From Trebouxia sp. TZW2008 (lineage: Eukaryota; Chlorophyta; Trebouxiophyceae; Trebouxiales; Trebouxiaceae): a stretch of 64,000 nt of DNA. Both the position numbers and the translations under genes were made by a program. Below, one piece after another: positions 1,026 to 63,775 of the stretch (the first letter of the stretch is position 1; each line of letters opens with the position of its first letter). The notes beneath the pieces are model-generated. The model was not told the DNA's origin, did no database searches, and worked only from the letters and a program-made list of their open reading frames with translations. The stretch covers positions 124,001 through 188,000 of the forward strand of contig BDIU01000076.1 of NCBI GenBank assembly GCA_002118135.1, read 5' to 3'.

Positions 1026-4000
1026 CTACTTTGTCTGCAAGGCAGGGATGGGGCTTGAACCATTGCTACCATTGGATCTTGGACTGCCATCACCAATTTT
1101 GCCCAGCTGCGGCACCATGTTCACCTGCAAATAGCAATTGACAGGACGTCAGACCATGATGCTGCACAACATACACCTGCAGACAGTAGCCAACAACATG
1201 TGAGGCTTTCACGTCTCAATGTTGAACCTGGGATCCAACACCCCCAGGCAGAACAGCAGATGCCATCATGAATGTCTGCAGCAGGGACTGCAGGGTTTCA
1301 GGCTTGCATGGCTCAAATGGAATTCTGCTTTGAAGTCATTCTGCCCAAGCAGAACAGCAGATGGCATGATTGAAGTGTGCAGCAAATCCTGCAGGATGTC
1401 AGGCTTTCATGGCTCAAGATGGACGCTTGCTCGAAAGTTGTTTTGCCCAAGCGAAACAGCAGATGGCATCATCGACGTCTGCAGCGAGCAATGCAGAATC
1501 TCAGTCTTTGCAGCTACCAGTCAGCAATCAACATTATGACAAGCTTTCGCTCTTGTTTCTGCCATATGTGACAAGATGGATTAACTGTGAGAAACAACAG
1601 CTCAGAAGTTGACAGAATGCAGATGCTGCAACCTTACTGTGCTGGCTTAAGCAGCTGTCATTTGGGGGTGTTTCACTGTGTCATAGACTGCCTGAATTTC
1701 ATGGACATATAGTCATTGCCACAGTGTGGCACGTGTGATCAGCCTTGTTGGCTGGCTAAAGCATGTGAAATTATTCTCTCTCTCTTTGTGCTAAGATCAG
1801 AGGGAGGTGTCATGCTGACGCACCAGTTCAGGTGTTTACCTGTGTCGGGTAGGCCAGCTTGGCAGTATGAGCAATGATGATCTGCTGCATCTTGAGAGAT
1901 CAACTGATGAAATGTTTGCTTGTATTGGCAATACAGATCAATCTATTGCTTGAACGCGAGAGTCAATGTATTTTCCTGTATTGGGCAGGGAAGAGTGGCA
2001 CCATGGGATTGACTGGCTGGTTGTATGTCAGATCACATGCGAGATTCATTGCATGTACTTGTTTGTTGGGTAGGCAAGCTTGGCACTGTGTGCAGTCTGA
2101 ACCAGCTTGAGAATCAACTGATGAAAGGTTTACTTGTATGGACAGTAAAGATCAATCTTCTGCTTGAATGTGGCACCCAAGACATTTACCTGTGTTGCGT
2201 AGGACAAATGGCACCATGGGATTGACTGGCCGTTTGTATGTCATATCAAATGCAAGCTTTAGTGCATTCAACCGTGTTGGATAGGCCAGCTTGGCTCCGT
2301 GTGCGGCAATGGTCTGTTCCAATTTGGAGAATCAAGCCATGACATGTCTGCTGAAACACAAGACAAAAGGCGTGTTAGAACAGGTTGCAGCTGCATAGCA
2401 GCAGCATGTACCTGTGTTGGGTAGGCAAGCTTGGCACCATGTGCGGCAATGATCTGCTCCATCTTGAAGAAGAGGCCCTGGCGGAAGCCGCCAAAGTCCC
2501 GGGACATGGCTGGCGTTGTGTGCAGCTGCAGGCAACATGCATGAACCTGTTGGTTGCTTGTTTTGCTTGTTGCAGTTCAGCAAAAGGCAGCCAGTGCGAG
2601 CTCAGTGCTTTGCTGCAGTGCATTTGCAGTGAGTCTAACGCTGTCAAATGCAGTGCGTCTGCAGTGAGCCTAACCCTGTCAAATGCAGTGCGTCTGCAGT
2701 GACTCTAACCCTGTCAAAGTCAAGAAACCAGCATAGTTGAGGGCCAACAATGGTGTGAATGTTGCCGGCAACATGCTTCACTCCCACAAACCCAACCCAC
2801 ACAAGCAGCTGCCAAATGTATGCCCTCGTTGTTCAGCAAGTACTGTTCCCCTTGTCAATGAAGATGGCATGCATCTGAGCATAGTCGCAATAACACCACA
2901 CTCAGAGGACATACACTGGTGTAGATGTTACGGGCATCATGCTCCATGCCAACATAGCCAACCCGCATAGGCAGCTGCTTGTGGACGCCCTCAATGTTCA
3001 GCAAGTACTGTCCCCCTGTTAATGTAGAAGGCATGCTTCGGAGCACAGTTGAGACAACAGGACAGGCAGAGGGCGTACAATGTTATAGATGTCGCAGGCG
3101 TCATGCTCCACACCCACAAAGCCGACCCAGATGGGCAGCGGCTGTGAATGCCCTCAGTGTTCACCGCAGAATATCCCTCCATGAATGCACTAGAGAAAGT
3201 CAAAAGCACGGCATAGTCAGAGGGCTTACAATGGTGTAGATGTTGCAGGCGTCATGCTCCACACCCACAAAGCCAACCCACATAGGCAGCTGCCGGTGGA
3301 TGCCCTCAGTGTTCAGCAGATGGTCCTTCATGTCGGTGCAGATGCCCTCCACCTTGGAGAAGTCCTCAAAGCGCACGTTGAAAGTGAATTGCATCTGGCG
3401 AGGCTTGTTGAAGTTCACGATCACCTTGGTCTTGGCAATGCGGGACTCATTGCTGATGATCTGCTCTGACAACACCTGTAGAGCAAGTTCTTTTGCTCAG
3501 TCAGCCAATTGAGATAGAGCCTATGGAGCTTAACATGTAGACATCATCTCACAATTTAGACAGCAGCGATGTGAGACTCATTGCTGAAGACCTGCTCTGA
3601 AGGCATCCAGACAGGCAGTTGCTCACGTCCTTTGCTTTTGTAGCGCATGACTCATTGCTGATGATCTGCTCTGACAACACCTGCATGGGTACTGGTCCAT
3701 TCAGATGTTCAGTTGGTGCCATGCAATTTGGAGGCAGTCAGCCCTGGCGATGTGAGATTTGTTGCTCATGATCTGCTCTGACAGATCCTGCACAAGATGG
3801 TTGATAAGTCCTTCGGCCGCTTTCTGTGTGGCTTGAAGTTCACAATCACCTTGGTCATGGTAATGCTGGAGTCATTGCTGGTGATCTGCTCTGACAGCAC
3901 CTGCACATCACTATGTGAGCCTGTCAGGGATTTGCAGCTGCAGCTTAAGTCATGCTTGACTCAGGTATAGTAAGTTAGCATGAGATTCTGAGGCCACGAA

Positions 4001-7000
4001 AAATTGCAAACACAAGGCTTCATGTGAAAAGACAGTAGCACTTGAGATGGGCAGGCATGGGCAAAACGCCTGGGCAGTCAGTTGAGAACATGACATCCCT
4101 AGCTCCAAATCTCTGTAGTGCTTGGTGAAGATCAACAGATTGCACTTTGAGTGCACCAAGAGATGAGCAGCATGCCAGCATTGCTTTGAGATAGCTGTCA
4201 GAGAAAACAGGATGTCTCTTCAGTCAAGACACAGATGGCAAAAACACCACAGCTAAGACACAAATGGCAAAAACACACTACAGCACTCAAGGCTCCCGGG
4301 CGATCACTCAGCTGAGTACTAGGTGAGCCCAATCCAGTTTGACTTCCCTGATCAAACGAGAAGGGGTCTAGTCTGAATGGTATGGCCGTAGCATGGCTCA
4401 TCAGCCATATCTGAGCTCCATATGCCTGATGCATAGCTCACCCACCAGTGCACCACACAGGGATGCTATGCGTTTGCCCGGCCGGGCAGTTGTATTTTCT
4501 TTAACTAATTTTGGCTACAAAGCTCTTGCAGTTAGGCTGGTTTTGACTAAACTTCTGTCATGACGCCTCATAGCCCAGAACCTTGTCTGCTGTGCTGTTG
4601 CATCACAGACTTGGCAGCAGATGGGCGTCATGTTGCTGCACAAGTAGCCACTTGACACTGTATGCCAGTCGACAGGTTGTATCCATGGCACTATTCTTTT
4701 GTGATGGACAGCTGATGCGGCTTGACAGGCATGCATTGCAGAGGCGGAGACCCAATTCTTCTTTCATTCATTCATTTGTTTTTTCGTTCGTTCATTCATT
4801 CATTCTGAATGAGCGCGTGCTAGGCAGGCTCAGCAAGCTCAGCCAGGTATGTATTAGAGCAATCAATTGTGTCCAGCCAGTTTTGGTCCTGTGCTGTTCC
4901 ACATCATTTGTACTGAGCATCTAGGGAGAGGAGGTCCTTGTAAAATCAATACTTGCCGCTGTGGCAAGGCTGTGATGACAATGCTCAGGTGTGTCAAACC
5001 TGTCAAAGTGCCTAAGAAGTTGCTGGTGATGGTCATGCTTCAATTGGAGCATAGTCAGAATCAGAACAAATGAGTCTCACTGAAAGCAGGCAGTACAGCA
5101 GGCAGGCAGGCAGCAGGCAGGCATTACAAATGTGCCTTCCTTTACTGATATTTCTTACATTTTTGTCTTCCAAACAACTCAAGATAAACGATGAGACTCA
5201 CCTTTGCAACAGGTGCAGTGAGCACAAGCACACACGTGCACAGAAAGTAGTTTGTGCAGTTGCCCAGCCAAATCAAGTGGCTCTTTTGAGAGCTTGACAG
5301 GGGCTCGCCTCCCGTGAGTGCATTATCTGCAAGTGCTGCAGCCCAATTGATGGCTTTGAACCTATGCTTGCTTGAAAAAGTGACAAAATTGCATGGCGCA
5401 TTGTGATTCCCGGACAATGACTTGATAGTGGTTTCTGAGCATGGGCTATATCGTGTTAGATATGCAAAAGGTTATCCAGTCCGTCTGGATGATAGTGTAT
5501 AGCATTGTGTGTACCTTGGTATGGATGTAGATGGGCATGCCAAAGTCTGTCCAGATGATGGTGCATGATGTTGAGTGTACCTTGTTAGGAATGGTAATGG
5601 GCATGCAGGAGTCTGTCCGGATGATGGTGCGCATGGGGTCCACCCGCTCAACAGTGCCCACCACAAACTTGCTGCCCCCCACAGAGCTGATCTCAATGCG
5701 GTCTCCCACCACAAAGGGGCGAGAGATGAACTGCAAGGCAGCATATAAAGTAACAACCACAATGTAAACAATTGCAATGCAGTAAACTCTGTCCTGAGAG
5801 AGCAGCATGATAGGCTTGGTTTTGCTCCTCACAAACATGCTGCTGCTCACTTGGCTGACATCAACGCACTTTCAACAAAAGCAATTTGACATGATGAAAA
5901 CAAGGAATGACAAAATCTCTCATGAGAGCATGATGATGCCAGATATTAGTGCATGCCAAGTTAACGCCAAGTTGATGCCAAGATCACTTAGGACATGACG
6001 CTCTGCGCTGAAAATTCATGGCGATTGTAATGTCTATTGGCAAGCAAGACAGGCAGATGTCATATGTCAAGTCGACGACCAAGTTGTTGGGCATGTCATC
6101 CTTGATCACTGGCTCACAATACCAGCAGCGCAAAATGCGTACCAAGTTGATGCCAGAAATCATGTTGGACATGACGCTCTGCGCCGACAAACCCACGACG
6201 ATACCGCTGACCCCACCCACAGTCAGCAGGGGCTGGATGTTGATGCCCAACACCTGAAGGGTGGCTAGGATGCCCCCAAGGATCAACACCCAAGATGCAA
6301 GGCCTGAGAAGGGCAGCACCACCCGCTCCATAGTGTTGTCCTGCAGCAGCGCTAGTGGGTATTGCTTGCAAAGTGGCAGACATGACAGTGACTCTAGCAT
6401 GGGTAGCTAAGATGGCATCTAGCCTCCAGGATGCAAGGACTGAGAAGGGCAGTGTCACACGCTTCATAGCGTTGTCCTGCACATACGATTTTTTGACGAT
6501 CACCATGTGCATGGTCGTGGCAACATCAGCACCAAATTTCATGTTGGCTGGTGGGTATGACTCCCAATTAGCAATATGCAAGCCAATGCAGAGAACCAGA
6601 TGCATCTCAACTGTTGTCATTGCTCAGCCTGACGATACGAGCCTCGTTTCCCTACACAGGCTCAACACTTGGCTACTGTTCACTGGTCTCCAAGGCATGT
6701 CATCAAATGCATGAGCTGCGGGACAGCAAGGGTTACTTACTGTACTCTGTAAGACAATGCCCTTCTTCTGGTCCTTGAGGGCAGAGACATCCATGATGAC
6801 CTTCACCATGCGGTCCTTGAACCTCAAAGCTGTCCACACCCTGCAAACATCCATCAAAAGCTCAACAATAGAACCACAACAGTCATGCCAGCTATCACAT
6901 AACAAACAAGAACAGGAGAGCTTGGCATAGGTGTGCAGCGTCAGGGAATGACCATGCGCCTTGGCACCAAGCGCGCATTTGCAACAAAACCTGTCAAGGT

Positions 7001-9069
7001 CTGGCTGTTTGTATGCTGCAATAGGACAAGGATACAGCCCGCTCCATGGCTTATAAAGTGTTTGCACCGCGAAGAGGTGAAGTGACACGGCTAAATATGC
7101 ACCAAAATGTCACCTATTGCAGCGCTTGCCAGAAGAGTCTGCTGGCTTCCCAGAGTTGCAAAGCTGCGAGCATGCAGTGGTTGGCTGAGTAAGAGAGATG
7201 CCTTATCAATGTCAAGCTGCGAGCATGCAGTTGTGGGTTGAGCATGTGACATTTGACATGATCACTTGGCATCAGCACAATCAACCAAGTCAAATCAATC
7301 AAAGTTAGGTGCTCAGTACGCAGAGCAATGGAGCTTACCCAAAAGCTACAAGGGCCACTTGTGAGACCTCATATACCACAAACTGGGCGGCTGTGAGCGC
7401 TGACAGTGTCTTGACAGTGAGAGTCACTGCAGGGCAAACAAGCATGCATCAGCCTGGCTTTGATCCCTTTCAAAGTTAGGATTCAACCTAAGACATCTGA
7501 TTGCACTCAGAACATGGAGTCTTGCATGTTGCATGTGCTGGGTGGTGCAAGCCTGCATTCATGATGGCAACAAAGCCTTCAAGCAGGGTCACAGTGATAC
7601 TGCTTATGCAGACACGCCATTGCTTGATGCTCAAGAGGGCAGCCCTGCTCTGATGTGCATCAAGCTAAACCTCTGCTATTGTGCTTACTGCTGCATGCGT
7701 GACTTTGTGCCTGACCATGCTTCACATTGCGCAACACTCGAGCTTAGAATCTCTTACTTGCCTGATCCCAAGAAAGCTGTTCTCAGCCTGATGCACCAAG
7801 AGAGCATACAGAAAGGCAGACATCGCTATGGTGCTTTGGAATATACACAATGCACAGCAAGTGAGCGCAATCAAGGTCAAAGGATCATACTCGCCCAGTC
7901 TCCAAGGAAGGCATTCTCAGCCTGGTACACCAAGAGAGCGTCCAGAAAGGCAGACACCGCTCTGATGCACACCACTGCAGCACCAACAGGCACCAGGAAG
8001 CCTGCTGGCCGGTCCAAAGCAATCAGGGCTGACTCAACGCCATGCCGCAGCCAAGACTTGCTAGATTGCTTCTCTTGGTCATCTACAGAAGCCATCCATG
8101 TCAACTCCTGCAAAAGTCAACTTTGGTGAGGATCACTGGCAACTCATCAATGGCAGACATGATTGGTCATGCTGTCGCAGCCAAAATTTGCTGGACTGCT
8201 TTTCTTGGTCATCTATTGAGACCATCCATGTGAGTTCCTGCATCATCACAGTCAGATCTAAGGTTGTGGTCAGCAGACTTTATATAGGACTGCAGCCAGG
8301 ACTTGCTGGACTGCTTCTCCTGGTCACTCACTGGGGCCCCCTGTGTGAGGTCTTGCGCAGCGACAGGAAATCAATATGGCAGCCTCCTCTTTGCAAGCGA
8401 TCAGATATGCAGGTAGCACATGCAGATGCCTTTACTTGCTGACATGCTCGCAATAGCTTGGTGCTAGCGTAGCACTTTGAACAAGGAGTCCAAAATCTCT
8501 GCTCATGCTGAAAATGATGTATGCGAGTATCCTGAGATTGCACAGCCTGAGCCAAAAGTACAGATGCAAAAGCATGCTGCAGGTGACATACAGGCTGCAC
8601 AGTCGGCTAAATATGCGCAGTAAGGAGATGGCATCACCTCGCCAGCCTCAAGCTTTCCTGACTGAGTGATGAGAAATCTTGATACGATGGTGGCCAAAGC
8701 CAGAGAAGCTATCACAAGACCAGCGCTCTGTGCAGCATGCTGCCAAAGCGGGACGCTGAGAATGGCTGCAGTACGAGCAGCAGCAGCTGATTCTGCCGCA
8801 GCAGTTGCAGGGTTGACAACGGGGTGAGGCCTGAACCAGTTTCCAGCGACTGCCTGTAGCCGACTGCTCCGCCTTCTTGGCCTGCTTGTGTGCTTCAAAT
8901 CCTCCCGCAATCCACAGCTGTGCCTACTGTTGAAGATGCTGCAGCGAGAGCTGATGGCAGGGCGGGAGGTGACTGAACGAAGGGAAATGGTACACGCAGC
9001 ATGAAGCTTCGAAGAATGCTGCATTGCTGGTGCTACGGCAATAGGACGTGCAAGCTGACCGACGACCAT
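1026..9069 (-). CDS. MscS-like (MSL) mechanosensitive channel, organelle-type
   Basis: Nine exons give 547 residues: 9069-8638, 8107-7891, 7426-7339, 6840-6741, 6340-6143, 5730-5581, 3475-3230, 2525-2412 and 1124-1026. All GT-AG borders and phases agree. Residues 1 to about 75 are rich in Arg, Ser and Ala and resemble a transit peptide. Hydrophobic helices follow. The Gly/Ala-rich pore helix and start of the MscS beta domain lie at 310-395 (GGVSGIVVGLSAQS, then RPFVVGDRIE and PNK), and the MscS C-terminal alpha/beta part runs to about 515 (HGAKLAYPT). Known role of the family: a tension-gated ion channel that relieves osmotic stress, in plastid or mitochondrial membranes for this class; the compartment is inferred. 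The ATG at 9069 was chosen because the longer frame starts only with TTG. Introns are packed with exon-edge copies, and one intron holds a 5S rRNA gene. Divergent from the dolichol kinase gene. Confidence 0.9.
1219..1530 (-). repeat. Three tandem copies (~105 bp), likely acceptor-edge relics of the last MSL exon
   Basis: Three degenerate copies centre near 1265, 1365 and 1465. Each contains, on the minus strand, a CTGCAG followed by GATGCCATCTGCTGTT and a GGGCA-A run. The order resembles the acceptor and start of the final MSL exon at 1124 (TTTGCAG, then AACATGGTGCCGCAG and CTGGGCAAAA). The match to the exon is weak and the copies have stop codons, so they are read as decayed duplicates. Confidence 0.5.
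1679..1790 (-). repeat. Dispersed (GA)n-anchored repeat, copy 1
   Basis: On the minus strand a GAGAGAGAG run is followed by TAATTTCACATGCTTTAG, CCAGCCAACAAGGCTGATCA, GCCACACTGTGGCA and GGCAGTCTATGACA. The same order recurs at 13804-13918 and, partly, at 21704-21819. No coding potential. It could be a SINE or a MITE. Confidence 0.75.
1831..2338 (-). repeat. Five donor-edge relics of MSL exon 8
   Basis: Degenerate copies of the end of exon 8 (AAGCTTGCCTACCCAACACAG then GT, at 2412) lie at about 2262-2338, 2181-2237, 2050-2130, 1963-2020 and 1831-1918. Spacings alternate near 130 and 85 bp, so a two-part unit of about 215 bp seems to have been duplicated again. The 1831-1918 copy keeps an open LAYPTQ-type end and a GTAAAC donor. 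Confidence 0.85.
2745..3229 (-). repeat. Three donor-edge relics of MSL exon 7
   Basis: Copies of the end of exon 7 (HRQLPMWVGFVGVEHDACNI in the true exon) start near 2750, 2920 and 3083, about 150-167 bp apart. The 2920-3036 copy stays open (HKQLPMRVGYVGMEHDARNI). The 3083-3185 copy has a one-base deletion after the GIH codons and shifts frame. The 2750-2865 copy is also out of frame. Confidence 0.85.
3555..3905 (-). repeat. Four acceptor-edge relics of MSL exon 7
   Basis: The acceptor and first codons of exon 7 (CAG, GTGTTGTCAGAGCAGATCAT, at 3475) are repeated upstream at about 3562-3612, 3640-3690, 3750-3795 and 3833-3905. The motif TCAGAGCAGATCATCA is kept in most copies with changes. 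The 3833-3905 copy extends further into the exon (the CAAGGTGATTGTGAAC part). Confidence 0.85.
4269..4273 (-). terminator. Pol III T-run terminator of the 5S gene
   Basis: On the minus strand TTTTT follows the 5S 3' end by one or two bases. The 5S end plus this T-run is duplicated once about 30 bp further down (a second TTTTT near 4231-4240), showing the same local tandem duplication seen at exon edges. Confidence 0.75.
4275..4394 (-). rRNA. 5S ribosomal RNA gene inside an MSL intron
   Basis: The minus strand reads ATGCTACGGCCATACC at its 5' end, has CTAGTACT and GAGTGATCGCC in the loop E/helix IV part, and ends with GAGTGCTGTAGTGT. Length is 120 nt. Ends pair over about 10 bp (helix I, with G-U pairs). 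Helix II can form as ATTCAG with CTGGAT, and CCC with GGG in helix III. The internal control region (AAGTCAAACTGGATTGGG) differs somewhat from the usual AAGTTAAGC form, but helix II pairing is kept, which argues for a structured RNA. A T5 run follows directly. The gene lies in the intron between exons 5730-5581 and 3475-3230 of the MSL gene, on the same strand. Expected product: the 5S RNA of the large ribosomal subunit, made by RNA polymerase III. Confidence 0.88.
4762..4864 (+). repeat. Dispersed (ATTC)n-anchored repeat, copy 1
   Basis: A degenerate TTCATTCATTC run is followed by GGCAGGCTCAGCAAGC, TCAGCCAGGTA and GAGCAAT. The same order recurs at 47969-48080. The function is unknown; it may be a short retroelement with a simple-repeat end. 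Confidence 0.65.
5450..5580 (-). repeat. Two donor-edge relics of MSL exon 6
   Basis: The exon end (ATCATCCGGACAGACTCC through ATTCCTAACAAG and GTACAC, at 5581) is followed by two ~75-bp copies. The first keeps ATGCCCATCTACATCCATAC, then AAG and GTACAC, a complete donor. The second (ATCATCCAGACGGACTGG) has lost the donor. Confidence 0.88.
5945..6486 (-). repeat. Relics flanking MSL exon 5 on both sides
   Basis: A donor-side copy lies at about 5945-6012 (GCGCAGAGCGTCATGTCC and GGCATCAACTTGG repeated). An acceptor-side copy lies at 6386-6486, beginning GACAACGCTATGAAGCG and reading like exon 5 until it breaks where the true exon has the ILGGILAT codons. The true exon is 6340-6143. Confidence 0.82.
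7765..8345 (-). repeat. Relics flanking MSL exon 2 on both sides
   Basis: A donor-side copy at 7765-7840 matches 7897-7974 (the VYQAENAFLGD-coding part). Two acceptor-side copies at about 8165-8240 and 8283-8345 match the exon start at 8040-8107 (GACCAAGAGAAGCAGTCC on the minus strand). The true exon is 8107-7891. Confidence 0.83.
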
Positions 9070-10385: not shown

Positions 10386-10417
<32 letters not shown>

Positions 10418-13400: not shown

Positions 13401-16400
13401 AGCAATCACGACAGCCAAAAGTTTGGCACAGGCCGGCTGAGCTACAATGTCATGTTCACATTTCAGCCACATGCTGAAAATGAGGACACTGAAAATCTCA
13501 GTGTCACTGTGCTGAATTACAAAATGCTTGCGCTGATGCAGGTGTTGGGAACAGCAGCCGCAGCATGCGGGACATGATCTTGGACAGCATCTATGACAAG
13601 CAAAACTTTGGCAAGGGCTGGCTAGGGTACAATGTCATGGCCAGAGCCCCAGCAGCAATCTTTGTGCAGCTTCTCATAGCTATCAGTCTAGCGCTGGCAT
13701 TAGTTCTGACTCCCCTGACCAAGAAGATGGTGCAGAAGCTGTGGCAGCAGCGGCAGCTAACTTGGCATGCACCTATGTTTCTTGGTAGGTCCTGATCATG
13801 TCCAGAGAGAGAGAGAGAGAGAGTAATTTTACATGCTTTAGCCAGCCAACAAGGCTGATCACATGCGCCACACCGTGGCAATGATCATGTGCCCATGAAA
13901 TATAGGCAGTCTATGACATTGGAAACCCCCCCGAATAATCATGTTGCGCAAAAAAAATGTGCATGTTGTACAGGGGTCATATCGTATGTGATGCGTACTT
14001 GTCAGTCAGTCTGATGCTGGTATTCGCACTGACTAAGAAAGGGAATGCCACAGCAGAAGCTGTGGCAGCAGCATCAGCTCGCATGGCATGCGCCCATATA
14101 TCTTGGTGAGTCCTGATCATGTCTGGATCAAATAACTTAGCCAGGCTGGAACTTGCGGAAATTCTGACTCCCGTGATCAACAGGCTGTGCACAAGGTGAT
14201 GCAGCGGCAGAACATGGCATGCACTCATGACTCTTGGTGAGTCCTGATCATGTCAACTATGCACGAGGTCAAATCCCTTGTTTGTGGTGCGTGTTTGGTA
14301 AAGTCTGGCGCTGGCACTAGTACTGACTGCCCTGATCAAGTAAGTAGTGAAGGCGCTGTGGCAACAATATGAACTCACACGGCATGTGCCCATGTTTCTG
14401 TGTGTTTTCTGGACATGTCAGAAGTTGTGTGGTGATTTGCTTATGACCAATCTGGCGCTTACATTAGTAGTGTGACAGCAGATGCGCCTGTGATGTTGCC
14501 ACTGCTCAACAAGATTAGATCCTGTGCAGCGTCACACCTATCACTGCCATTTGGATTGCTGTTGTTACTGTTGCTGCTGCCATCAGACCATACCTATGGG
14601 GTGTCCAGTCTAAAGTGAAAGTCTGTGCTATCATCAGCATGCGGACAACACCTGTGACTGCCATGCAGGTGTGCTGTTACTGACAACCCGAGCAGTCATC
14701 AGGCCATGATCACAACTCTGCTAAGAAATATGCATCTGCGTTCTTGCTGACATGGCAATCGTCAACACAATGGCAATGCAGTTGTGCTACTGCTGACAGC
14801 ATTTGCAGACATCAGACCAGCAACGGAAGATTGCCAACATTCACGCATTGTTGTTAAACATGGTGATGTCAATGTGATGGCACTGCAGGTCCCGTACTGT
14901 TGAACGTAGCAGCAGCCATCAAGCCAGTGTTGTGCGTGTTCCAGGTTGAAGTCAAAGTGTTCGATTGATCATCAGCGTGCTTGTAACTGGGACAATGTTG
15001 TTTGCAGCTTGTCCAGCACTCACGACAGGTGTGTGGTTGTGCAGGTCTGGTGTTCTTGACAGTAGCAGCAGCCATTAGCCAGCGCTACGGGTGCTAGCCT
15101 TTGCAGTTAAAAACCCCAAACTGTGAATGTGCCTATTTGCAGTCAGCAGCTATGCTACAATCGATGCACATGCAGGTGTGGTGCTGTTGATCAAAGCAGC
15201 AGCCAGAAAACCAGCCTTCAAAGCTCAGGAAGCAGTTGAGCATGTCCTCGAGTGTCTGCGTTTCCATTGGTATACTACTGACAGGTGTGGCAATGTTGAT
15301 GCAGGTGTGGTGCTGTTGACAGCAGCAGCAGCCATCAAGCCAGCGCTATGGGTGCTCGCTTTTGCAGTGGAAACCTCACGCCGCCAAATGCTCATGGCAT
15401 ACTGGGTCTTGAGCCTAGCTTTAGTCATACCACTAATCCACTGGGTGTCAGCTGCCCATGCCATGCCCACAATATTAGTCAGGAAGGGGTACCACCTGCT
15501 GGCCCTTGGGCTGTTCCTACCAGCCCTGCTGTGGGAGCCTCAGCTGCTGGCAGTTTCTTTGGCCATTGCACTGGCTCTGCTTGTTGTGCTGGAGGTTGTA
15601 CGTCTGGGAGAAATACCATACTTAGGTACGCATATGAAAGCAACTTTGGGTGGTGTCGATTTCTGATTTTGCTGCACACTGATTAAGGCGTCAAGTCAAG
15701 CTCCTCAGCGTACATATGCATGTTTGGCTTTGCAACAGCAACTGCTGACATGGCAACATTTCATGTACACTTTGATCGTCAAGCTGTTGACAGTGCTTTA
15801 CTAGACTTGCCAACTTGCAGCAAGCAGGCTATGCCAAGAGTGTTGTTGCTGATTCATCTTCCAGATGGTGTCTTGAGCTGCCACATCTCTGACTGCGTAT
15901 GTTCACATGTCAGAGATGTGCAATGCAGGTGAACATCGTTGTATGTTGACAATATATTTCACTGATGGGCTAAGGTTGTACAATGCAGGTGACCAAATCC
16001 ATAAATTTATGATGTCTTTCACTGATGGGCGTGACGCTGGGATGCTGCTAGTCAGCCATTTCTCCCTGTTGACCGGCATGGCAGTCCCAATCTGGTTGTC
16101 TCCTGTCACCACAAGCGCGGCCAGCGCACGTCGTGACATATCTTCTCGTTCAGAGCTTCAGCACCTGACGCAGAGTAGCATAGGACGCGTTGGCGGCGCA
16201 AGCAATCCTCTGCCCTTGACAGCATTTGCTGGGATTATGATTCTGGGTATAGCGGACTCGGCTGCTTCAGCTGTTGGGCGCAGATATGGCAGGCACAGGA
16301 TTTGCATTGGGACTAATAAGACTGTCGAGGGCACTCTGGGAGCGGCCCTGCTGACCCTGCTCGGTTGGGCCCTGCTGGCTATTGTTTTCCAGAGTCATTT

Positions 16401-17339: not shown

Positions 17340-20300
17340 TCATGACGCTGACGGCAGAGACTTTTCCTTCTTCCGCCGTCCTGTTTTCTCCTTCACAACG
17401 CATGCCTCAAGTCCTTTGCGGAGTTTGTCCTCCGGTAGGTCTTTGCCAATGAAGACAATTGTGCTTCGTCGCTTCTCATCTGGTCTCCACTTGCGATCAT
17501 TGTCGGCGGAAAAGTCCAGATTGACACCCTGCTCACAGCCATCAATGTCACTGAGCATTGGCGCACTTGGGAGCTTTTGTGAAGCGACATGCAACGGCAA
17601 CAGTTTCTGGAGTGAGCATGTCGTTTCACGACAATGAACCTTGTGCAGGTTGCATGCATACTGACAATTGAAATAGGGGTTGTTTGGGGCCATCTGGACT
17701 GATGCAAAGCTCACATTGCTGCATGGGATATGACAGATGCATGAGCACCTCAATGCAGAGCACACAATGACAACCCCTATAAACCCCAATATAGGAGAAG
17801 CCAAAGCCAAACTCTGACCACTAGCTGTTGCACTTCTAGATGCATCAGGGGTAGTTGTAGTTACCATTTGGCTGACTGGCAAAAGGTGTGCAGGCAAGCA
17901 CACTGCAGCATGCAACATCGAGCCATGGTCAACTTCACACCTGGAAAATTGAGCGGGTATCGTGACCTCCATCAGACATGATTAGTTGTAGAATATAACA
18001 TCAAGCCAATGTAAATTACACACCTGAATAATTGACCGGGTATCGTGGCCGTCAATAGACATGATTCCCTTGTAGCGATAGATGTTCTCTTCGCTCTCCA
18101 GTAATGTCTCCTCCAGGAATGTATTCACCTTTTCTGGATCAACACTACCATCCAGGACAATGCTGACAGAAGACACCTCATCGTTGTACGAGTGGCTGTC
18201 TGAAGCTCCATTTGCACTAAGCTCATGCTCATCTCGATCCAGCTGCAGGCACAGGCAGCAGATCAACCACAAAAGCTCAGGTTGTCGAAATCACAATCTG
18301 GATTTACAGAAACACAGAGTCATTATGCAAGTGGCTGTCTAAAGCTCCATTTGCGCTGTGCTCGTCTTAATCTCAATCCAGCTGCAGGCACAGGCAGCAG
18401 ATCAACCACAAAACCTCAGATTGTCGAAAACGCAATCTGGATTTACAGAAACACAGAGTCATTGTGCAAGTGGCTGTCTGAAGCTCCATTTGCGCTGTGC
18501 TCGTGTTGATCTCAATCCAGCTGCAGGTACAGGCAGCATGTCAATCATTTCAGGGCAGGCTGTCAAAAGTACAATCTGATCCATAGAAAACCAACTTAAG
18601 CTGCTGTTGTGCTTGCAGGGCAGGTGGGTGTCAAATCATGCGCGTCGCACCAGATATGATAGAGAAGCAATCATGCAAGCACTTTGTTGCATGTAAACTC
18701 ATGCTCGCCAAAGACAGCACTTGCAGGTAAGTTGGTGAGGTGCTGTGAAAGGTCAACTTTACTCACAATATGCACATGAGAGCAGAGTGTTGTGCTTGGC
18801 ACAGCACATATGGTACAACATGAAATGCAGTATACATGCATGCAAACTGCATCTCAGAAAGGCCTTGTTGGCGTATGCATTCATTCAAACCACACAAAAA
18901 GCATTCTGCTCTGCAGAGCGTCCAGGCTACTGTGAATGCAAGCAAACGCTTGAGCAGCAAATGACAGCTCCATCACACAGACACCTTCAGGGCAACATGC
19001 CCCATGGAAGTTACTGTTCCTAAGCAAAGGTACAGATCCTATGCACAGCAACAGCAGCTTGCCTAGACAGCACGAAAAGGTTTTGCAGCAGCATACCTCT
19101 TTGCCTACAAGCACTGACTCAAATAAGCAAAAGCATGAGTCTCATGCACAGCTTGCCTAGACTGTACAATCAGGTGTTGCAGCAGCATGCCTCTTTGGGT
19201 AAACACTGCTGCAAATAAGTCAAATCACGGGTCTCATGCACAGTGACGGCAGCTTGCCTAGACTGTACAATGAGGTGTTGCAACAGCATACCTCTTTGCC
19301 TGCGAGCACTGCGTCAAGTCAGCAGAACCACGGGTCTCACGCACAGCGACGGCAGCTTGTTTCGACAAAAAGGTGTTGCAGCAGCATGCCTCTTTGCCTG
19401 CAAGCACTGCTTCAAAGAAAGCAGAACCACAGGTCTCATGCACAACGGCCGCAGCTTGCGTAGACTGCACAATAAGGGGTTGCAGCAGCATACCTCTTTG
19501 CCTGGCGAGACAGGACTTGGAACCACGCATGCGCTGCAATGTGTAACGATTACGAATGCTACTTATTGTTTCTTATGGTTGTTATCATTACCTGTTTGCC
19601 TACAAGCGCAGCTTCAAAGCCTCCAATGTCAAGCGCATAGTCTGCAGGAATATTTGCATTCTGGACGCGCCTGATCTGAGCTAAGCTGTTGATTGCTCTG
19701 ATGCGCTTCTCCACCCGGTCCAGCTGCTCTTCTGATACCTGCATGGAGTTGCCCAATATTTTGCAAACTTCAGCTCATTGCTTGTCAATGATGCTGTTCA
19801 CAGCAAAGGGGCCAATACAGCCGTTGATTGCTCTGAAACGCAGTCAGCAAATCTCACCAGATCGGATTTGTTCAGTAGTATGCGGTCAGCGTATGCAATC
19901 TGGTCTACAGCTTGTGGCTTCTCATCCAGATGCTGCTCAACATGGGCACAAGGTCAAAAGCAATCTCACTCAATTTGAGACAGGCATGGGGACTGTGCAT
20001 GTACACCCGCACTTTTACCCACAGGCAACTGCCCAGATGCTGACAAGGGAGAAGAACGCATCTCACCAAGTCTGTTTTGTTCAGCAGTATGCGGTCAGCG
20101 TATGCAATCTGGTCCACAGCTTGTGGCTTCTTCTCATTGAGATGCTGCTCAATATGCTGAGCATCAACCAGGGTGATCACGCCATCCAGAACCAGATCCT
20201 CTTCCAAAGATTCGCTCACGCGGCAGGTTACTACTATGGACTTGAGGTCTGCGGTAGCAGTTGTCTTGATGACCACATGGTCTGGCTCATCATCACTGAG

Positions 20301-21700
20301 AAGCTGCAAGCAGTAAGAACTGTTTTTCCTCCATGCTACTGTTAGTCACAACCGCGTCTAGGGCCAAGACTGATCAAGTGTTGTTATGCAGTCTATTGTG
20401 CACAAAAGACAGGCTATTGTTGACTTCAGGTTTGCTGTAGCTGTTGTCTTGTTGACCACATGGTCTGACTCTTCGTCACTGAGAAGCTGCAAGCAGGAGG
20501 GACTTTTCAGACTGCCGTTTTAGTGTATCTTTTGGCGATTGCACAGGATACAAAGGCAGTTACAAAGTATACAAGGACAGTTACAAAGGGTACAAAGGCC
20601 AGCGTTTGATTCAGAGACACTTGGCAGACAACTGTGTACAAAGGTCTCTCTTGTCTGCTACTGTTGACTACAGGCACATTTCTGTGCAGAGCTGATTGAC
20701 ATCTTGTTATGCAGTCTTCTAAAAGCACAAAAGACAGGTTCAACTCAGTCAGCTTGACAGCTGGCATGTTTTGTAACAGCAGATCTAGAACAGTAAGGAT
20801 GCATGATGAAAAGGCGCATTGCAAACCATGCACTATGCACTGTGCAGATCATGCACTATGCAAACTATGCACTGTGCCAATCATGAACCATGTAATGTGC
20901 AAAATCATAAACTGCAAGCCCATATGCTGTGATGCCTTTATCAGTGTACTGGCCCTTGCCCCTACGCAGCCTCGTGTACAGCGTACTGACGGCAAGATGC
21001 ATCTCTTTCCATCCAAGCATAAAGGCGGATTCAAGGCATCCAAAGCCTCATACTGTCTCACAGATGTACACAACGCATACTTGTGGAATAGCTAGCAACA
21101 TTGTTCCAGAAATACAAAACACAACACCCCCCAGAAAGGGACGCGTTTACAAGGTCTGGCTTGTTGCAACAGTTTGGGGCCAAAAGTACTTACTAGGGCC
21201 TCCAGCTTCCCTATAAGGCCCTCAGGTGGACGTTGGTCATCTTCATCGCTGTCAGGATCCGACTCACTGTTGTCATCGTCAATATCGCCAGCCTGTACCA
21301 CAATGGCTGTGTCAGGTGGTCAGTGAATCACCGTGCAAAACATTCAATATAAAATACGCAATTCACAACTGTTTAAGGGTAAAAAGCACAGTGCAACTTG
21401 TAAGGTCAGCAACACATAGGCATTGAGAAGTGTATGCAATAAGCACATTGAAGTAGCTATCATTGAAATTGGGAGCCCATGCAGATCCTAGCAGAAGATC
21501 CTAGCCCTACTACAGAGTTTGCAACAGTAGATTCTTGCCCCTTCTGTTATGCAGACTCTACAGCAGTGGAAACACTGCAGTGGTCCCTATTCTGAGTGAT
21601 ACCTTCTGCACAGCGCACGCATGGCAGAATATCTTTGAAGATGGACATGACAAGAGGAGTACACTTTGATGGCCTGAGAGCGCATACATGGCAGAGTAGT

Positions 21701-21763
<63 letters not shown>

Positions 21764-24966: not shown

Positions 24967-24986
24967 ATTGGGGGTCCTACATCCTA

Positions 24987-30473: not shown

Positions 30474-33400
30474 CTACACCAGGCATGCCTCAAATCCCTT
30501 GCGAATCTCATCCTTGTCTAGGTCTTTGCCAATGAACACCATCCTGCTCTGTCGTTTCTCATCTGGTCTCCACTCCCGATCAAAATTGGCAGAAAAGTCC
30601 AGATGGACACCCTGCAACACATATCGGAATTTCTTGTGACATAGTGTTGAGATTGTGCCCAGCAATGTCCAACTTTCACTTAACGGGTGCACAGCAATGG
30701 GGCTTGTGCACTTTGTAAGCAAGTGGGCTCAGAACAAGCCTGCCTGGCGAGACATGACTTGGGCCACACGCACCTGGCACATGTGCTGGAAGGTGTAGCG
30801 ATGATGATTACTATCATTACTGCCAATGCCATGCAGGGATGACCTGCAAACCATCTGCACCAACCTGCTATGCATAGTGTTGCATGGAACGCAGCGAAGT
30901 CACAAGAATTCAAGAACAGCATACACAGTGACCTTTGGCTGAGTGGCAAAGAGCGTCCAAGAACAGCACACACAGTGATCTTTGTTAAGTGGCAAACAGA
31001 GTGCATTTGTGCAAGCACTTTGGACACCATACAACATCAAGCCATGATAAATATAACAACTCTCTTGACATTGAGAAAAGAGGAAAATTCGATAAAGAAG
31101 AAAAGTGTATGCCGTTAGACGTCATAATGGGAGCCTGTGACCAAAGACGCAGCCCGGGACATTAACATTGACTTTATGACCCTTTATGGTCTCTATGACA
31201 GTGCAAACAGAGTGATTGATTGAGTTTCATACCTGGAAAACTGAGCGAGCATTATTGCCTTCAACAGACATTATGCCCTTGTAGCGATAGAGGGTCTCTG
31301 CATTCTGAATTAGAAGCTCCTCCAACCAGCCATCAAGCTTATCTGGGTCGATGTTTCCATCCAAAACAATGCTGACAGAAGACACAGAATCATCGTGCGT
31401 GTGGCTGTGACCATGTTCATGGTCATGATGATTGTGATCAGGGTGTTCATGACTGTATTCATGGCTGTGATCTGAGCTGGTGCTGTGGTCGGCATGGGCG
31501 TGGTCATGTGCATGCTCCTCATGGGAATGGCTGTGTGATGCTCCATTGGCGTGTGCTTCTCGTTCAAGCTGCAGGCACCAGCAACAGATCATTGTAAGGA
31601 GCATTTAAAAGAGGGCAGTACATTTGGAAGAGACAGCTTCAGCCATGATCATGATCACAGTGTTTGTGACCGCATTCATAGCTGTGCCAGCAGCCATGGG
31701 CATGCTCATGTGTATGCTCTACGGGAATGGCTGTGTGAAGCTCCAGTTGCATGTTCTTCCTGCTCAAGCTGCAGGCAACATAAGATTGCAAGGTACAGCT
31801 CAAAGAAAAGCAGTGCAGTTGGGAAGGATAGCTTCAGCCATGATCACGGTCTTTAGCTTTGTATTTGTGGCTGTGTGAAGCTCCATTGGCGTGCTCTTCC
31901 CGTTCAAGCTGCAGGCACAGGCACTAGATTATTGCAAGGTACAGCTCAAGAAGGGCGGGAGTATCCCTTCTGGACACAGCACTTCCAGGCAGCTTATGAT
32001 GAGCTCATGAGATGAAATGCACATAATAAAGTCTATGCAAGAGTTTTGTTTTGACACACTGTTGCATCACAATGCATGCAAACAGCATCATCAATTGGCA
32101 GCATGTAGGATGTAGGGTTTAGACCCTAAACCCAAATGAAGATCTCATTCTGCCCTGCAGTAAAGAGGCACTGCAACAGCAATATACAGATGCATTCAAC
32201 AAATATTTTTGTTGTGACATTGCTCTGAGGGAAGGTTTGTTTGTATGCATGGCTGGAGTTGTCAATCACATCAATGGCTGGCATGCCTGGACAGTAAAGA
32301 GCAGTATTGCAAGCATCAGCAGCATACCTCTTGTCCCACAAGCATGGGTTCGAATCCTGCAATGTCAAGCACATAGTCCACAGGGACGTCTGCGTTCTGG
32401 ACACGCTTGATCTGAGCCAAGCTGTTGATTGCCTTGATGCGCTTCTCAACACGATCCAGCTGCTCCTCTGATACCTGCATGCATATGGTCAAACTTCTGC
32501 ACACTCCCACTGGCAGCTTGGCTAGGTAACGGTCATAGCAAACATGCCAAGGCAGCCTCTCTATTACTAATCAGCTTAGCATGTGTATGTATTTAGCTTG
32601 AGCTTGCATTAGCTTCATTAGCTAATTAGCTAAAGGTGAGCTTGAGTGCTCACTAGCTTGACAATCTGCTCCAAGTCAGCTTTTGCAAAGCTTTCAATCA
32701 TGTTTGCTGCAAATGTTCTGCTGCAAGTGTTTTGTGAGTTTGTGCAAATACGTGAAGGGGCCAAGAACGCAGGAATTTGCATGAATGCCGTGCAATGTCA
32801 AATGCAACTCCGCTCAACTGGGGCTTAAGGCAGCCTCTCCATTGCTAACTAGCTTGATAATCTGCCCAGGAACAGCTTTTGGGGAGCTTTCAATCATGTC
32901 TACTGCAAGTATTTTGCTGCAAGTGGTTTGTGAGTTTGTGCAAATGTGTGCAAGGGCCAAGAACGCAGGAATATGCATGAATGCCATGCAATGTAAAATG
33001 TAAGTCCACTTTGATAGAGGTAAGCAAGTGTTTTGCATGCACAAGCTGATCGACCTCCAGGTGCAGACTGGGACTCGGAAAAGAAGTCTCACCAAGTCTG
33101 ACGTGTGCAACAAAACGCAGTCAACAAAATCCATCAAGTCTGTTTTGATGAGCAGTGAGCAATCAGCAACTCTCACCAAGTCTGTTTTGTTCAGCAGAAT
33201 GCGGTCAGCATATGCAATCTGGTCCTCAGCTTCATTCAGAGCTCCTTCTGGCTTCTTCTCGTCTAGATGCTGCTCGATGTGCTTTGCATCAACCAGTGTG
33301 ATCACGCCGTCCAGAACCAGATCCTCTTGCAAGTCTGGGCTCATGCGTAGGGTTGCTATGATTGGCTGAGGATCTGCCAGACCTGTTGTCTCTATGACCA

Positions 33401-49267: not shown

Positions 49268-52200
49268 ATGTTGGCTTGTACCGGCAAACTTGGCCTAGCT
49301 CCGATCTTCCCAGCACCAACTGGTCACAGAAGCAGTCGGATCTTTCCTCAATTTACGGACTCGCAGCGTCGTCAGATTTCTGTGAGACCGGCAGGTGGAG
49401 ACTCGTTTACGCTGAGCAGACCAGAATTTCTGTCAGCAAGCTATAGCTTGCCTCTTTGTCTTGCAGGCAGCGCAGCGTCGCCTTGCCTCCTAAACCGTCT
49501 TAGAGTCCGATGTCGCGGGGTCCACGTCGTTGCTGAGGTGAATATCTGTCAGCTTGCAGCTTGCTCATTACACCATTATTTTGGACTGCTTGTATGCACC
49601 CCATTGCATTTGCTCGAGCCATTTTGAGCCTGCACCTTTGCTGCAGGCACAGCAGGAGCAGCAGGAGCAGCACTCTCCACGTTCTGCAATCACGCAGCGG
49701 CGTGTCAGCTTCAGGACCCAGCATCAAGTGAACTTTGGAGAGGTGATCAAGATCATAGGACAGGGTCCACAGTTAGGCAAATGGGATGTACGGCATGCTC
49801 CAGGTACGTGAAGCATAGTCTGCCTGCACTCTACGCTTGCTGTATAAGACATGATCAGATCACAAAAGGGTCTCAGGTCTCAGACAAGCCTGTGTCTTGC
49901 CTTTGGGTACGCCGCATGAAGTGCCCTTGCTATGCTGCGCCCCAGCAGCCACTTGACATTATGTTGTATTGTGTCCCTGGAACAACAGCAACGCTGACCT
50001 CTGCCGCTTTGTTGTTGCTCAACTCAAGCCAATCTTGAGGCCCCAGCTTTGCATTCTCAATGCACCTCATTCAGGTCCTGTTATTGCATTTCAAACTGAC
50101 AATAAGCTTTGCATCCTCAATGCACCTCATTCAGGTCCTGTTATTGTATTTCAATCTCGCAATAATGCGCTTGCAGCCATGGAATGGTCAGCAGAAGACA
50201 ACTGGCATCTGGAGGTGGACTTGTTTCCAGGCATCACTGACTTCAAGTGCGCAGTGGTGCGCTCTGACGGCAGCGTGGTGGTGTGGGAACCTGGGGCAAA
50301 CAGGACTGTAGAGGTATAATGTTTGCTCAAGTACACCTTCTGCATGTGTGGCAGCAAGGCTTGCCATTGACTGAACATGAGAGTCAAGCATGCTTATTGC
50401 ATGGAGGTCGGCTGTGTTGAATCTGTTTGAACGCTCAGGTGAGCGCCTAGATTGGCCTTTGAGACCTGCGTGGCTTTTGGACAACCCTGATGGGTGCAAA
50501 ATCTTGTCACCTGTGTGCGCAAGTGCCTCATGAGCAGTCAATCTCTGTTTTACATGTGAAACGCAGCACTAGCAATGCAGGCCATGAAGCATGCATGGGA
50601 GCAGACTGTTTGCATACTTGGCCAACTGCAAAGTGTGTTTTGATGCGACCAGGTCTGTACTGTAGGTTGCAGGTGCCTCATGAGCAGTCCAACTGAGCCA
50701 TACATATCAAGTGCACCTGGAGCAACACTGCAATAACACTATCCATGCCCTGAAGTCTTCATGCAGCAGACTGCATGCATGCTTGACCTGCCCCAAAGTG
50801 CACTCTGATGGGGACTGGATTTGCCATGGTTGCAGGTGCCACACGAGCAGTCAGACTCAGCCATACATGTCAAGTGCACCTGGAGTAACACAGGCAACAC
50901 CATTCAGGCACTCAGCATGGACGAAGACGATACTGCTGATTTTGTTGCTGACAGCATGGATGAGGAAGACCATCCCGTGAGATCTCTTTCTCTTCAATCA
51001 AAGTTTGAAGGGCTGGAATGCAATCCTCTCATCTTTTTGCTGTGACTCGCTTTTATTTAGCTTGGCCTCAAAACATCAATTGCACCATGTTCCACCTGTT
51101 GGGTTTATGTTGCAATTCTTGCAAGTCTGTTAATGGGTGTGTGCTACCAAATGTATTGCAGACTGCCATTCATGTGCTTGTCAGCATTCTGGCACAAATG
51201 TGCTTGGCGCTTGCTGCATCCGACAGTCCCAATGTGTGCAGCCACCTTTGGCAGGTTGCAACCCATGTTCCTGTGAGCATGGCATAGCAGCCCCCAGTGC
51301 CCAGTGCTTTGTTCACTGTGTCTTTCGAACAAACCAAACATTCACCAGCATGCCAGCCATCGAGACAAGCTGAATGTGGCATTTCAGTTCAAGATACTGA
51401 TAGATGAGATATCTAGCACAAATGCTGCATACGTATGTGTGGGTCACTGCGCATGGCACCACAGGGCACATTCATGATGTATGGGCAAGCCAGGGCGTCA
51501 AGCAGCATGCCCAACAATGACACAGACTCACCTGTGGTGCCTGGCAGCACTCAGCCAGAGAGCAGCCCTGAGAAGCGGCAGGGGGAGTTCAGTGATGTTG
51601 ACGAAGGAGACCTGGAAAAGGTAAAGCACTAGACTGTAACTGAATTTTGTCTTTGCTGAAGCCATTGCTGATGGATGGTGCACCCGGCACAGGAAAAAAT
51701 CAACGCAGCAGTGCAATACAAGTGTGGCTCTGGTCATCAGCTGTGTTGCAAGACCTGTTGTTGGTCAAGTAGATCTGGACCAAGCTTCTGGCTGAGATGG
51801 GCTGCAAGACTGAGTGGGTCTGTCAAACCAGCACCACAGCATCTGCTAAAGTTATGGAGCTCCGTCAGGTTGCTTCGCAGCTTCATCAACCCTCTTTCTT
51901 CAATCAAATGAGTGCTCTGGCACAAAAGGATCAGGGGTCAGATGGGCAGCAATCATGTTGTTTGCAAGGGCAAGGAAGGAAATGCCTGCAGTAATCCCTT
52001 TGTATCAGAAGTGCAGGCAAATGAAGGCCAGGCGGGCAGCAACCGTGAGAGGGTGCGCCAGCAATCAGGCGCTGGTGGCATCACCTTCCTGCCTTGCTTT
52101 CCGCCTTGCTGACCCTGGTTTCATCATTGCCTTTTCTTCTTTTCTGTGCTCTCCCTATGCCTTGGAAGTTCAGGCAAATGAAGGTCAGATGGGCAGCAAC

Positions 52201-62236: not shown

Positions 62237-63620
62237 CATTGCACAGGAAGCCAGAGGAAGGTACAGGCACAAAGTCAGATATCTGGCGACTGTCGTAGGA
62301 AAGTTCGCCAAATAGATTGCGCCCCCGGCCATTGCATGTGAAGATAAGGGCTCCAAATGCCTGGCCAAGTGAATCTCCCGTCATGCTTGCCTGCAGCGCC
62401 GCAACCAACATTCCAGCAGCAATTGCAGGACAATGTGCCTTTGTGCTCAGATAGAACAGATTAAGACAGAGTAAGGTAGACTAAGAAAGATCAAGATAGG
62501 TCAAGATAGACTCAGCATCTTATTAACATGCAGCAGCAGTTGCAGGTCTTTGTGATCTTGCGCTCGGTCAATTTTCTAAGCTGTCACGGCCGTTTGCTTT
62601 GCATGTGGACTGCACAGCGCCAAAGGCCTGGCCAAGTGAATCACCCGTCATGCTTGCCCGCAAAGTTACATTCGATATTCTCAGCAGCAGTCACAGATCC
62701 TTTGTGAGTCTTGCCATTAGTGGAGCTGCAAAGCCACAAAGATGCAGTAGCAGCTGCAGGTTATTGTCATCTTGCGCTCAGTCAATCATCAAAGTTGTGA
62801 AGTGATGCATGTGAAGGGATTCTAGAAGCCTGCCCAAGAGGAATGTCCTCCATGCTTGCCTGCAGAGCAACTCCAACACATCTAGCAGCAGTTGCAGGAG
62901 GGACATAGTCTAGCAAATTTCAGCCTTACACAGCATACAACAGATGAAACAAAAAGCCTGATTGCTGCTGAGAGAATGATGACATGTGTCCAGAGCTGGC
63001 TGGCTCACCTGAAATTCTCGTCTTTTGTAAGCCATGGCATGATTTTGCAGGTCTTGTTTGGCGCCTTCTTTATCTCTGACCATGAATCTGATGCGCTTGC
63101 CTACACCAACAGTCTCTCCCACTGCGATCGCCCCTTGCTTGGGGTCTATGCCTGAGAACACACAGCGAGGATGTTTGTCAATTGGGCCATTTTGCAGGAA
63201 AGCGCTGCACGGAGATTGGTGGCACAGGAGAGGCTGCTCAGTGTTGACATACACACAAACGCTGTGATGGATCATTTAGCGGTCCATGACCCACAACCAC
63301 AGCAGAGGCATTAACATCATGTCCTGTGCTGATGTTGTCACAATAAGCGAAATGTTCACGAGGTTCTGAAGAAGACTTAGGAAACAAAATGCAGATGATG
63401 ACGATGACGACAACAACGACGATGTTTGTGTGATTGCAAAAAAGGATTTGGAACGTTTGAGTACATACAGGTTCACATTTTTTAAAAATTTCTGTCTCTT
63501 TGCCCGACTAAGCACTTACCAATGATGCCTCTAATGAGAAAGTCACCAGCGTCCAACTCTGACTCCTCCTTGAAGTCATCAGGGGCTACTGCCAGCGTTA
63601 AATTATTACTCACGTCCTCC
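62237..63620 (-). CDS. FIST_C-domain protein, partial (both ends missing)
   Basis: Three exons join in phase: 63620-63520, 63151-63009 and 62390-62237. They read DDFKEESELDAGDFLIRGII, then IDPKQGAIAVGETVGVGKRI and FMVRDKEGAKQDL, then ASMTGDSLGQAFGALIFTCN, GRGRNLFGELSYDSR and SGFLCNG. This is the FIST_C pattern (DP--GA--VG, then GRG---FGE--YDS, then GF-CNGE). FIST domains are thought to sense small ligands and in plants are joined to F-box domains; no F-box is visible in this fragment. The gene begins beyond the right edge. The exon after GFLCNG, expected to carry the E-IGP end, was not found within 59.8-62.2 kb. Confidence 0.8.
62600..62870 (-). repeat. Two acceptor-edge relics of the FIST exon at 62390
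   Basis: The exon start (TGCAG, GCAAGCATGACGGGAGATTC, ACTTGGCCAG) recurs at about 62620-62665 (GCAAGCATGACGGGTGATTC) and 62823-62870 (GCAAGCATGGAGGACATTCC). The first lost the GCAG acceptor, the second kept it. Confidence 0.88.
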
Positions 63621-63689
63621 CTGCGCAGTCATCATGCATTTGTTCCATTGACAACTGTGCCTGCATTCACTTGTGTCAATGATACGTCA

Positions 63690-63775
63690 ATTCAGCCTTG
63701 TCTCTAATTCCTGCTTGAAGTCATCAGGTTTCAATGCCAAAGTCGAACTGTTGCTTACATCCTCCCTGTACAGTG
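63690..63775 (-). repeat. Acceptor-edge relic of the FIST exon at 63620
   Basis: Repeats the exon start (CAG, GGAGGACGTGAGTAATAA, GATGACTTCAAGGAGGA) as CAG, GGAGGATGTAAGCAACAG, GATGACTTCAAGCAGGA, about 150 bp upstream of the true exon. Confidence 0.87.

Follow-up and report, generated by a model that had tools for sequence, protein, structure and literature searches.

Background

Several processes leave short copies of sequence near their source. Repair-mediated proximal duplication in vertebrates produces short local copies whose donor and acceptor positions lie within 5 kb of each other; some of these include partial exons and splice sites, and the two full-exon copies tested gave no sign of coding constraint (Pace et al. 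2009, PMC2671141). Tandem duplications of small size are described as frequent in genomes, and a mechanism of break repair is given for them (Schimmel et al. 2021, PMC8355091). In potato, a duplication across an intron-exon border created a new spliced intron, and an 83-bp tandem duplication inside an intron was also found (2016, PMC4974935). Degenerate and intronic exon duplications, including inter-boundary ones, are a recognised class (Exonize, PMC12343006; decaying exons, PMC2718932), while introners are repeated intron-tied sequences, mainly of fast-evolving lineages such as green algae (PMC9860276). In this study, we describe copies of exon edges, with their splice sites, in the introns of a 64,000-nucleotide stretch of the green alga Trebouxia sp. 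TZW2008 (contig BDIU01000076.1, positions 124,001 to 188,000; the window), which a first-pass annotation made from the letters alone had noticed in seven genes (MSL, DOLK, CobW-A, CobW-B, haemoglobin, CBM20 and FIST).

These copies belong with the known local or tandem duplications and intronic exon duplications, and what is notable in this genome is their density and the serial record of many stages that they form. Among the matches listed in the open-licence literature (titles and abstract openings), no report of serial exon-edge relics in Trebouxia was found. As in the vertebrate system, the copies are short and local and include partial exons and splice sites; unlike that system, from which copies within 50 bp of each other were dropped and in which one exon copy was inverted, direct orientation dominates here, with 212 nearby direct pairs to 7 inverted in a scattered sample of the genome. 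The density looks far above the 824 events reported for the human genome, although the detection methods differ greatly. The likeness to small duplications at DNA breaks is one of description, unit sizes aside. Border-crossing duplication is shared with the potato case, but here the extra copy lies inside an old intron, and no intron has been gained according to our protein-guided models. Exonize and the study of decaying exons deal with whole, partial or disabled exons, whereas here we see mostly exon edges, tens of nucleotides plus the splice site. Unlike introners, the copies are local and match their own exon; in a comparison confined to local pieces, 16 of 228 direct pairs were at least 2 kb apart.

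Results and discussion

Exon-edge copies in introns and their decay

Exon borders were placed with our own spliced protein-to-DNA aligner and fetched homologous proteins. We searched 112 introns, comprising 91 of ten chaperonin (CCT/Cpn60) control genes, picked by Pfam family and not by repeats, and 21 of the window genes MSL, CobW-B and DOLK, with up to 150 nt of each of the two flanking exons as query (33 bits, low-complexity filter on; introns without GT/GC-AG ends or flanked by an exon shorter than 25 nt were excluded). A copy of an exon end in the downstream intron is called donor-type, and a copy of an exon start in the upstream intron acceptor-type. The search returned 43 exon-edge pairs (23 donor-type, 20 acceptor-type), as well as 34 intron-internal pairs, 2 inverted and 1 other. 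MSL accounts for 18 of the exon-edge pairs and CobW-B for 4, or 22 together, and DOLK for 2. Local repeats cover 33.5% of the intron bases of MSL and CobW-B versus 10.6% in the ten control genes, and comparing the whole window with itself revealed 105 direct repeat pairs spaced by less than 5 kb, 16 with wider spacing and 9 inverted. The identity of a copy to its exon edge ranges from 72 to 100%, with a median of 81%, a divergence too large for assembly errors in almost every copy; an assembly artefact is rejected both on identity, which is mostly 72-90%, and on the codon-position pattern that follows.

The copies had been described as relics at various stages of decay, and a divergence pattern near neutral agrees with this description. 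Codon positions 1, 2 and 3 of the 43 pairs have diverged by 14.3, 10.3 and 24.3%, respectively, and the intron part of the alignments by 21.4%; the first two positions are thus roughly half as divergent as the third position and the intron, and exon edges remain recognisable longest because of this slower divergence. Such a pattern results when a neutral copy, at about 12%, is compared with a source exon under protein constraint. Codon differences were counted in 41 pairs, with DOLK's two dropped there and retained in the pair search and the codon-position divergence. We found 116 synonymous and 176 nonsynonymous differences in 697 codons, with 5 stops and 21 gap positions, where random differences would give 55 synonymous, 237 nonsynonymous and 11.1 stops (standard deviation 3.0). 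Synonymous change in the source exon accounts for much, perhaps not all, of this gap from random, and some copies may be under mild constraint. By a hand count, about 9 of the 43 copies have lost the copied splice dinucleotide (8-10 by scoring of GC or one shifted GT) versus 22.6% expected, and an excess retention of copied GT/AG, which we considered, is not significant.

Copies aligned through the junction kept 18 of 20 donors (GC counted) and 15 of 16 acceptors, a tally that is biased upward. We scored site strength in the through-junction copies (DOLK's two left out) with a matrix built from 103 real sites: 15 of 16 acceptors and 11 of 18 donors lie above the 10th percentile of real sites, and, judging by sequence, good decoy sites in these introns are presumably ignored by splicing. 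Strong sites of this kind are what one would expect if the copies were functional, as alternative exon ends or decoy sites under selection, and the same can be said of the low number of stops relative to a fully random expectation and of the few blocks in the scattered sample that look coding in both copies (L020, below, with 5/5 synonymous differences). Nevertheless, the nonsynonymous differences, stops and gaps across the 41 copies, together with a dinucleotide loss near the neutral expectation, make this explanation highly improbable. Protein-level constraint as a rule for the copies is rejected on the same nonsynonymous and stop counts, though the stops are somewhat few. Nor do the copies resemble duplications of whole or mutually exclusive exons, since in MSL, CobW-B and the control genes they are partial and carry many nonsynonymous changes.

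Side and frequency of the copies

According to the first-pass annotation, introns hold copies of the exon end downstream of an exon and of the exon start upstream of it. The intron search used only each intron's own two flanking exons and says nothing on this rule, which we assessed in the ten control genes by comparing 50-nt exon edges with introns; a match was called strong when it exceeded every one of 100 unrelated intron stretches by 6 score units or more. Exon ends matched the downstream intron in 6 of 81 cases and exon starts the upstream intron in 4 of 82, while the intron on the other side gave no strong match (0/69 and 0/70) and exon interiors gave 1 in 53. The rule of side therefore holds, with 10/163 on the predicted side versus 0/139 on the other (p = 0.002).

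The copies had also been taken to be dense in every gene, which is too strong, as 7 of the 10 control genes have at least one copy, in 11 of 91 introns; common is the word that the control genes allow. Control introns with local copies (n = 16) have a median length of 543 nt versus 273 nt in those without (n = 75; p = 3.5e-7), a difference to be read with the caveat that longer introns are also larger duplication targets. Of the suggestion that introns grow by duplication across splice junctions, one half survives: local copies do add intron sequence, but the targeting or centring on splice junctions is not supported, as described below. Intron gain by exonic tandem duplication, named as a proposed mechanism in the first-pass annotation, leads one to expect a copy of the exon end at the 3' end of the intron and one of the exon start at its 5' end, and it is rejected here because the layout differs. 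The closest of the 23 donor-type copies ends 116 nt from the acceptor, and the closest of the 20 acceptor-type copies starts 163 nt from the donor.

Local duplication beyond exon borders

Repeats were also scanned in a scattered sample of 193,883 bases from 20 contigs of the assembly (68.5 Mb in 527 contigs), in pieces of up to 10 kb (45 or 60 bits, no low-complexity filter). The 212 direct repeats in this sample lay less than 2 kb apart, with 16 farther apart within the 10-kb pieces and the 7 inverted; shuffled controls scanned with the same cut-off contained none. Of the sampled bases, 14-15% lie in nearby direct repeats, a coverage that can be compared only roughly with that of the introns, because thresholds and filters were unlike. 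The sample contains 75 non-redundant duplication loci, and their offsets have a median of 170 bp, with the middle half spanning 136-213 bp (73 of the 75, two above 600 bp being left out). A spacing of about 170 bp is close to that of nucleosomes; as regards the idea of a nucleosome-sized unit, the one firm point is that long units are scarce, since very short ones would be missed. In the control genes, 25 of 227 intron windows match the rest of their own intron, several windows sharing one array. The duplications are thus direct, nearby and not confined to exon borders, as expected of neutral local duplication, and we conclude that the footprint of small local duplication in this genome is real, common and mostly neutral.

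There is no good evidence of a junction-directed process. Exon edges in the control genes do not exceed intron interiors, and the difference runs in the opposite direction (10/163 versus 25/227, p = 0.11). When units of the sampled sizes are placed at random over the control genes, 55% (0.549) of the events that touch an intron cross exactly one junction; about half must do so, because most introns span only one to three duplication units. The observed share, 13 of 18 sites at a junction and 5 intron-internal, does not differ significantly from this expectation (p = 0.16), and in the window genes 24 of 48 pairs are at junctions versus 32% predicted by random placement. The proposed centring of the repeats on splice junctions is thus not supported, given that intron interiors match at least as often and random placement fits the share. 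Duplication aimed at splice junctions, a process centred on exon borders that would make introns grow, could account for the side rule, for the modest excess of junction sites in both gene sets and for the sharp splice-site ends of 20 of the 43 copies discussed below. However, similar repeats are common in scattered DNA, intron interiors contain them no less often than exon edges do, and a small junction excess is expected in any case, because exon-bearing copies stay detectable longer. We regard a junction-aimed process as quite unlikely.

We consider it likely that widespread small local duplication produced these arrays, and that their junction-centred look comes from geometry and from the slower decay of exons. 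In such a scenario, the alga would frequently undergo small local duplications in direct orientation, offset mostly by 136-213 bp, inside and outside genes, and these may originate in repair or in replication slippage. A duplication within an intron or across one splice junction would be tolerated, as the outer site would still be spliced and the extra copy removed with the intron, and a duplication within an exon would mostly be purged. The extra copy would then decay neutrally. An exon and its copy diverge more slowly than two intron copies, because the source exon is conserved. Elsewhere the trail of small local duplications is soon lost, since two non-coding copies both decay; here exon edges act as slow-decaying markers and offer a layered record of the gain of intron sequence. 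Some introns contain as many as five copied exon edges, and because the sites of many copies are almost as strong as the real one, such introns are natural experiments on splice-site choice, and annotators should be aware that exon-like pieces in the introns of such genomes are often relics.

Sharp ends and spaced pairs

Several observations weigh against widespread local duplication as the explanation. The first is the way in which many copies end, stopping at the splice site more frequently than in the majority of our simulations: 20 of the 43 extend no more than 10 nt into the intron (three of these end 11-26 nt short of the junction), and one acceptor-type copy in MSL is an exact 35-mer that begins 3 nt before the exon. 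These sharp copies lack mean homology further in (mean z -0.09, 2/20 with z >2), and the other 23 have a mean z of 5.6 in the intron beyond, 17 of them with z >2. In simulations of tandem duplication on the donor side, which included point changes and small indels, the share of sharp copies was 5-9% at t = 0.08 and 9-19% at t = 0.12, the latter with a median identity of 78-81% next to 81% in the real copies. It reached 21-44% at t = 0.16, where identity is 77% and so below that observed. Adding large duplications and deletions (turnover) gave 20-32%, or 9-32% with or without turnover. The extent comparison used 40 of the 43 pairs, sources of at least 200 nt being dropped. When only the best copy per junction is considered, 10 of 24 are sharp (MSL, CobW-B and control genes; hand tally), which leaves the excess of sharp ends only suggestive.

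Also on this side of the balance are the many pairs of 80-95% identity that are not contiguous tandems, the 5 stops where 11.1 are expected at random, and the fact that the control genes are a single protein family, two of whose models (L037 and L038) are weak. At 85% identity or more, the length of the repeat reaches at least 0.9 of its offset in 4 of 18 non-redundant loci, and several of the others look coding, as do several spaced pairs of at least 80% identity in the scattered sample. The description of the copies as tandem is only partly right, since many are separated by unrelated sequence.

Two loci of the scattered sample are possible single exceptions to the lack of whole-exon duplications, since in each of them both copies look constrained, as in true exon duplications. 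In L020, a 100-bp exon-like block occurs twice (2612-2711 and 2790-2889), and 5/5 differences are synonymous in an open frame. In L027, a block is repeated at 3492-3640 and 4054-4202 with acceptor-like left ends and 17 of 24 mismatches in one codon phase, and here a functional exon duplication is probable.

The sharp ends bear on two further explanations. If gene conversion refreshed the copies, the duplications would be old, the exon part having been overwritten from the exon and the intron part having diverged beyond recognition. Sharp copies without mean intron homology and yet with 72-100% identity agree with such a history, as do the two CobW paralogues, whose exon 5 is 95% identical at its end (62 nt) and 71% at its start, and in which the copies of each gene are nearer to their own exon than to the copies of the other gene. 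However, the substitution pattern is the same in long and sharp copies, which therefore show no sign of different ages, and we find conversion doubtful as a general account. It is likewise unlikely that the splice site itself sets the limit of copying, or of later refreshing, of exon edges, with a process linked to splicing writing strong-site edges into introns. Candidates for such a process would be RNA-templated repair, breaks at transcribed junctions or exon-to-copy conversion, and the unit would begin or finish at the exon border in up to half of the copies.

Copies in the individual window genes

The gene models of MSL (431 of 536 aligned residues identical to P0123) and CobW-B (240 of 375 identical to P0007) are firm, and in these two genes the copies were confirmed with borders placed by homology. 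For the MSL part of a composite query, identity to proteins of Trebouxia sp. C0005 and C0009 is 97-98%, and for the joined CobW-B query, identity to Trebouxia proteins is 58-70%. Direct alignment confirmed the copies in CobW-A, where the exons come from spliced alignment. For FIST, one exon supported by Pfam has copies by direct alignment, and a second block (63557-63629) makes a weaker case, its exon being defined by an open frame only; the same limit applies to CBM20, where a block near 50836 is repeated with splice-like signals. Repeats are present in DOLK as well, but the 5' half of its model is weak and the 5' exon borders are uncertain. The haemoglobin gene has repeats at 37201-37864, whose relation to an exon edge is uncertain. 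The features are as follows (positions in the window).

1035..9069, minus strand: MSL (mechanosensitive channel) gene, by spliced alignment to P0123
8638-9069, 7891-8107, 7339-7426, 6741-6840, 6143-6340, minus strand: MSL exons, 5' part, by spliced alignment
5581-5730, 3230-3475, 2412-2525, 1035-1124, minus strand: MSL exons, 3' part, by spliced alignment
8173..8326 (8173-8242, 8292-8326), minus strand: MSL, two acceptor-type copies of the start of exon 7891-8107
7768..7834, minus strand: MSL, donor-type copy of the end of exon 7891-8107, 83.6% over 67 nt
6426..6481, minus strand: MSL, acceptor-type copy of the start of exon 6143-6340, 85.7%
5967..6014, minus strand: MSL, donor-type copy of the end of exon 6143-6340, 85.7%
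5478..5564, minus strand: MSL, donor-type copy of the end of exon 5581-5730, tandem, period 66
3565..3903, minus strand: MSL, four acceptor-type copies of the start of exon 3230-3475, with a 35-nt exact copy at 3649-3683
2716..3170, minus strand: MSL, donor-type copies of the end of exon 3230-3475 in an array with a period of about 165
1837..2331, minus strand: MSL, five donor-type copies of the end of exon 2412-2525, partly multiplied by later duplication (offset 211-221)
30480..35688, minus strand: CobW-B gene, by spliced alignment to P0007 and P0002
35659-35688 (part), 35241-35336, 34540-34677, 33177-33428, 32328-32474, 31233-31568, 30480-30611, minus strand: CobW-B exons
33464..33639, minus strand: CobW-B, acceptor-type copy of the start of exon 33177-33428, 84%
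33087..33176, minus strand: CobW-B, donor-type copies of the end of exon 33177-33428, period about 42
31695..31949, minus strand: CobW-B, two acceptor-type copies of the start of exon 31233-31568
33977..34541, minus strand: CobW-B, array from the donor of exon 34540-34677, offset 139-148, scored as intron-internal
20414..20507, minus strand: CobW-A, acceptor-type copy of the start of exon 20067-20303
19851..19944, minus strand: CobW-A, donor-type copy of the end of exon 20067-20303
18306..18578, minus strand: CobW-A, acceptor-type copies of the start of exon 18024-18242
62599..62899 (62599-62662, 62806-62899), minus strand: FIST, acceptor-type copies of an exon start near 62390, exon by Pfam FIST_C, copies by alignment
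63702..63774, minus strand: FIST gene, copy of block 63557-63629, exon status from an open frame only
50560..50728, plus strand: CBM20-gene region, copies of a block with acceptor-like TGCAG starting near 50836, by open frame only
14053..14399, plus strand: DOLK-gene repeats related to 13685-13802, exon border uncertain

CobW-A and CobW-B have copies at the same three junctions, and the likeness of A copies to B copies is lower than that of either to its own exon; these copies probably arose, or were converted, after the genes split. The exon 5 pattern of the paralogues (20060-20156 and 33170-33270) suggests possible gene conversion. The alignment of CobW-A (17397-22787) to Trebouxia CobW includes doubtful exons and a stop, and the gene may be degenerating or wrongly modelled.

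Other features of the window

The 2.1-kb MSL intron at 3476-5580 contains a 5S rRNA gene on the same strand (4275-4393, minus; Rfam RF00001, 85 bits). An open frame of 475 amino acids at 28066-29493 on the plus strand carries DUF4218 (PF13960), a domain known from plant transposons. Finally, a 1.6-kb CAG-rich degenerate array with a period of about 62 occupies 42413-44025.

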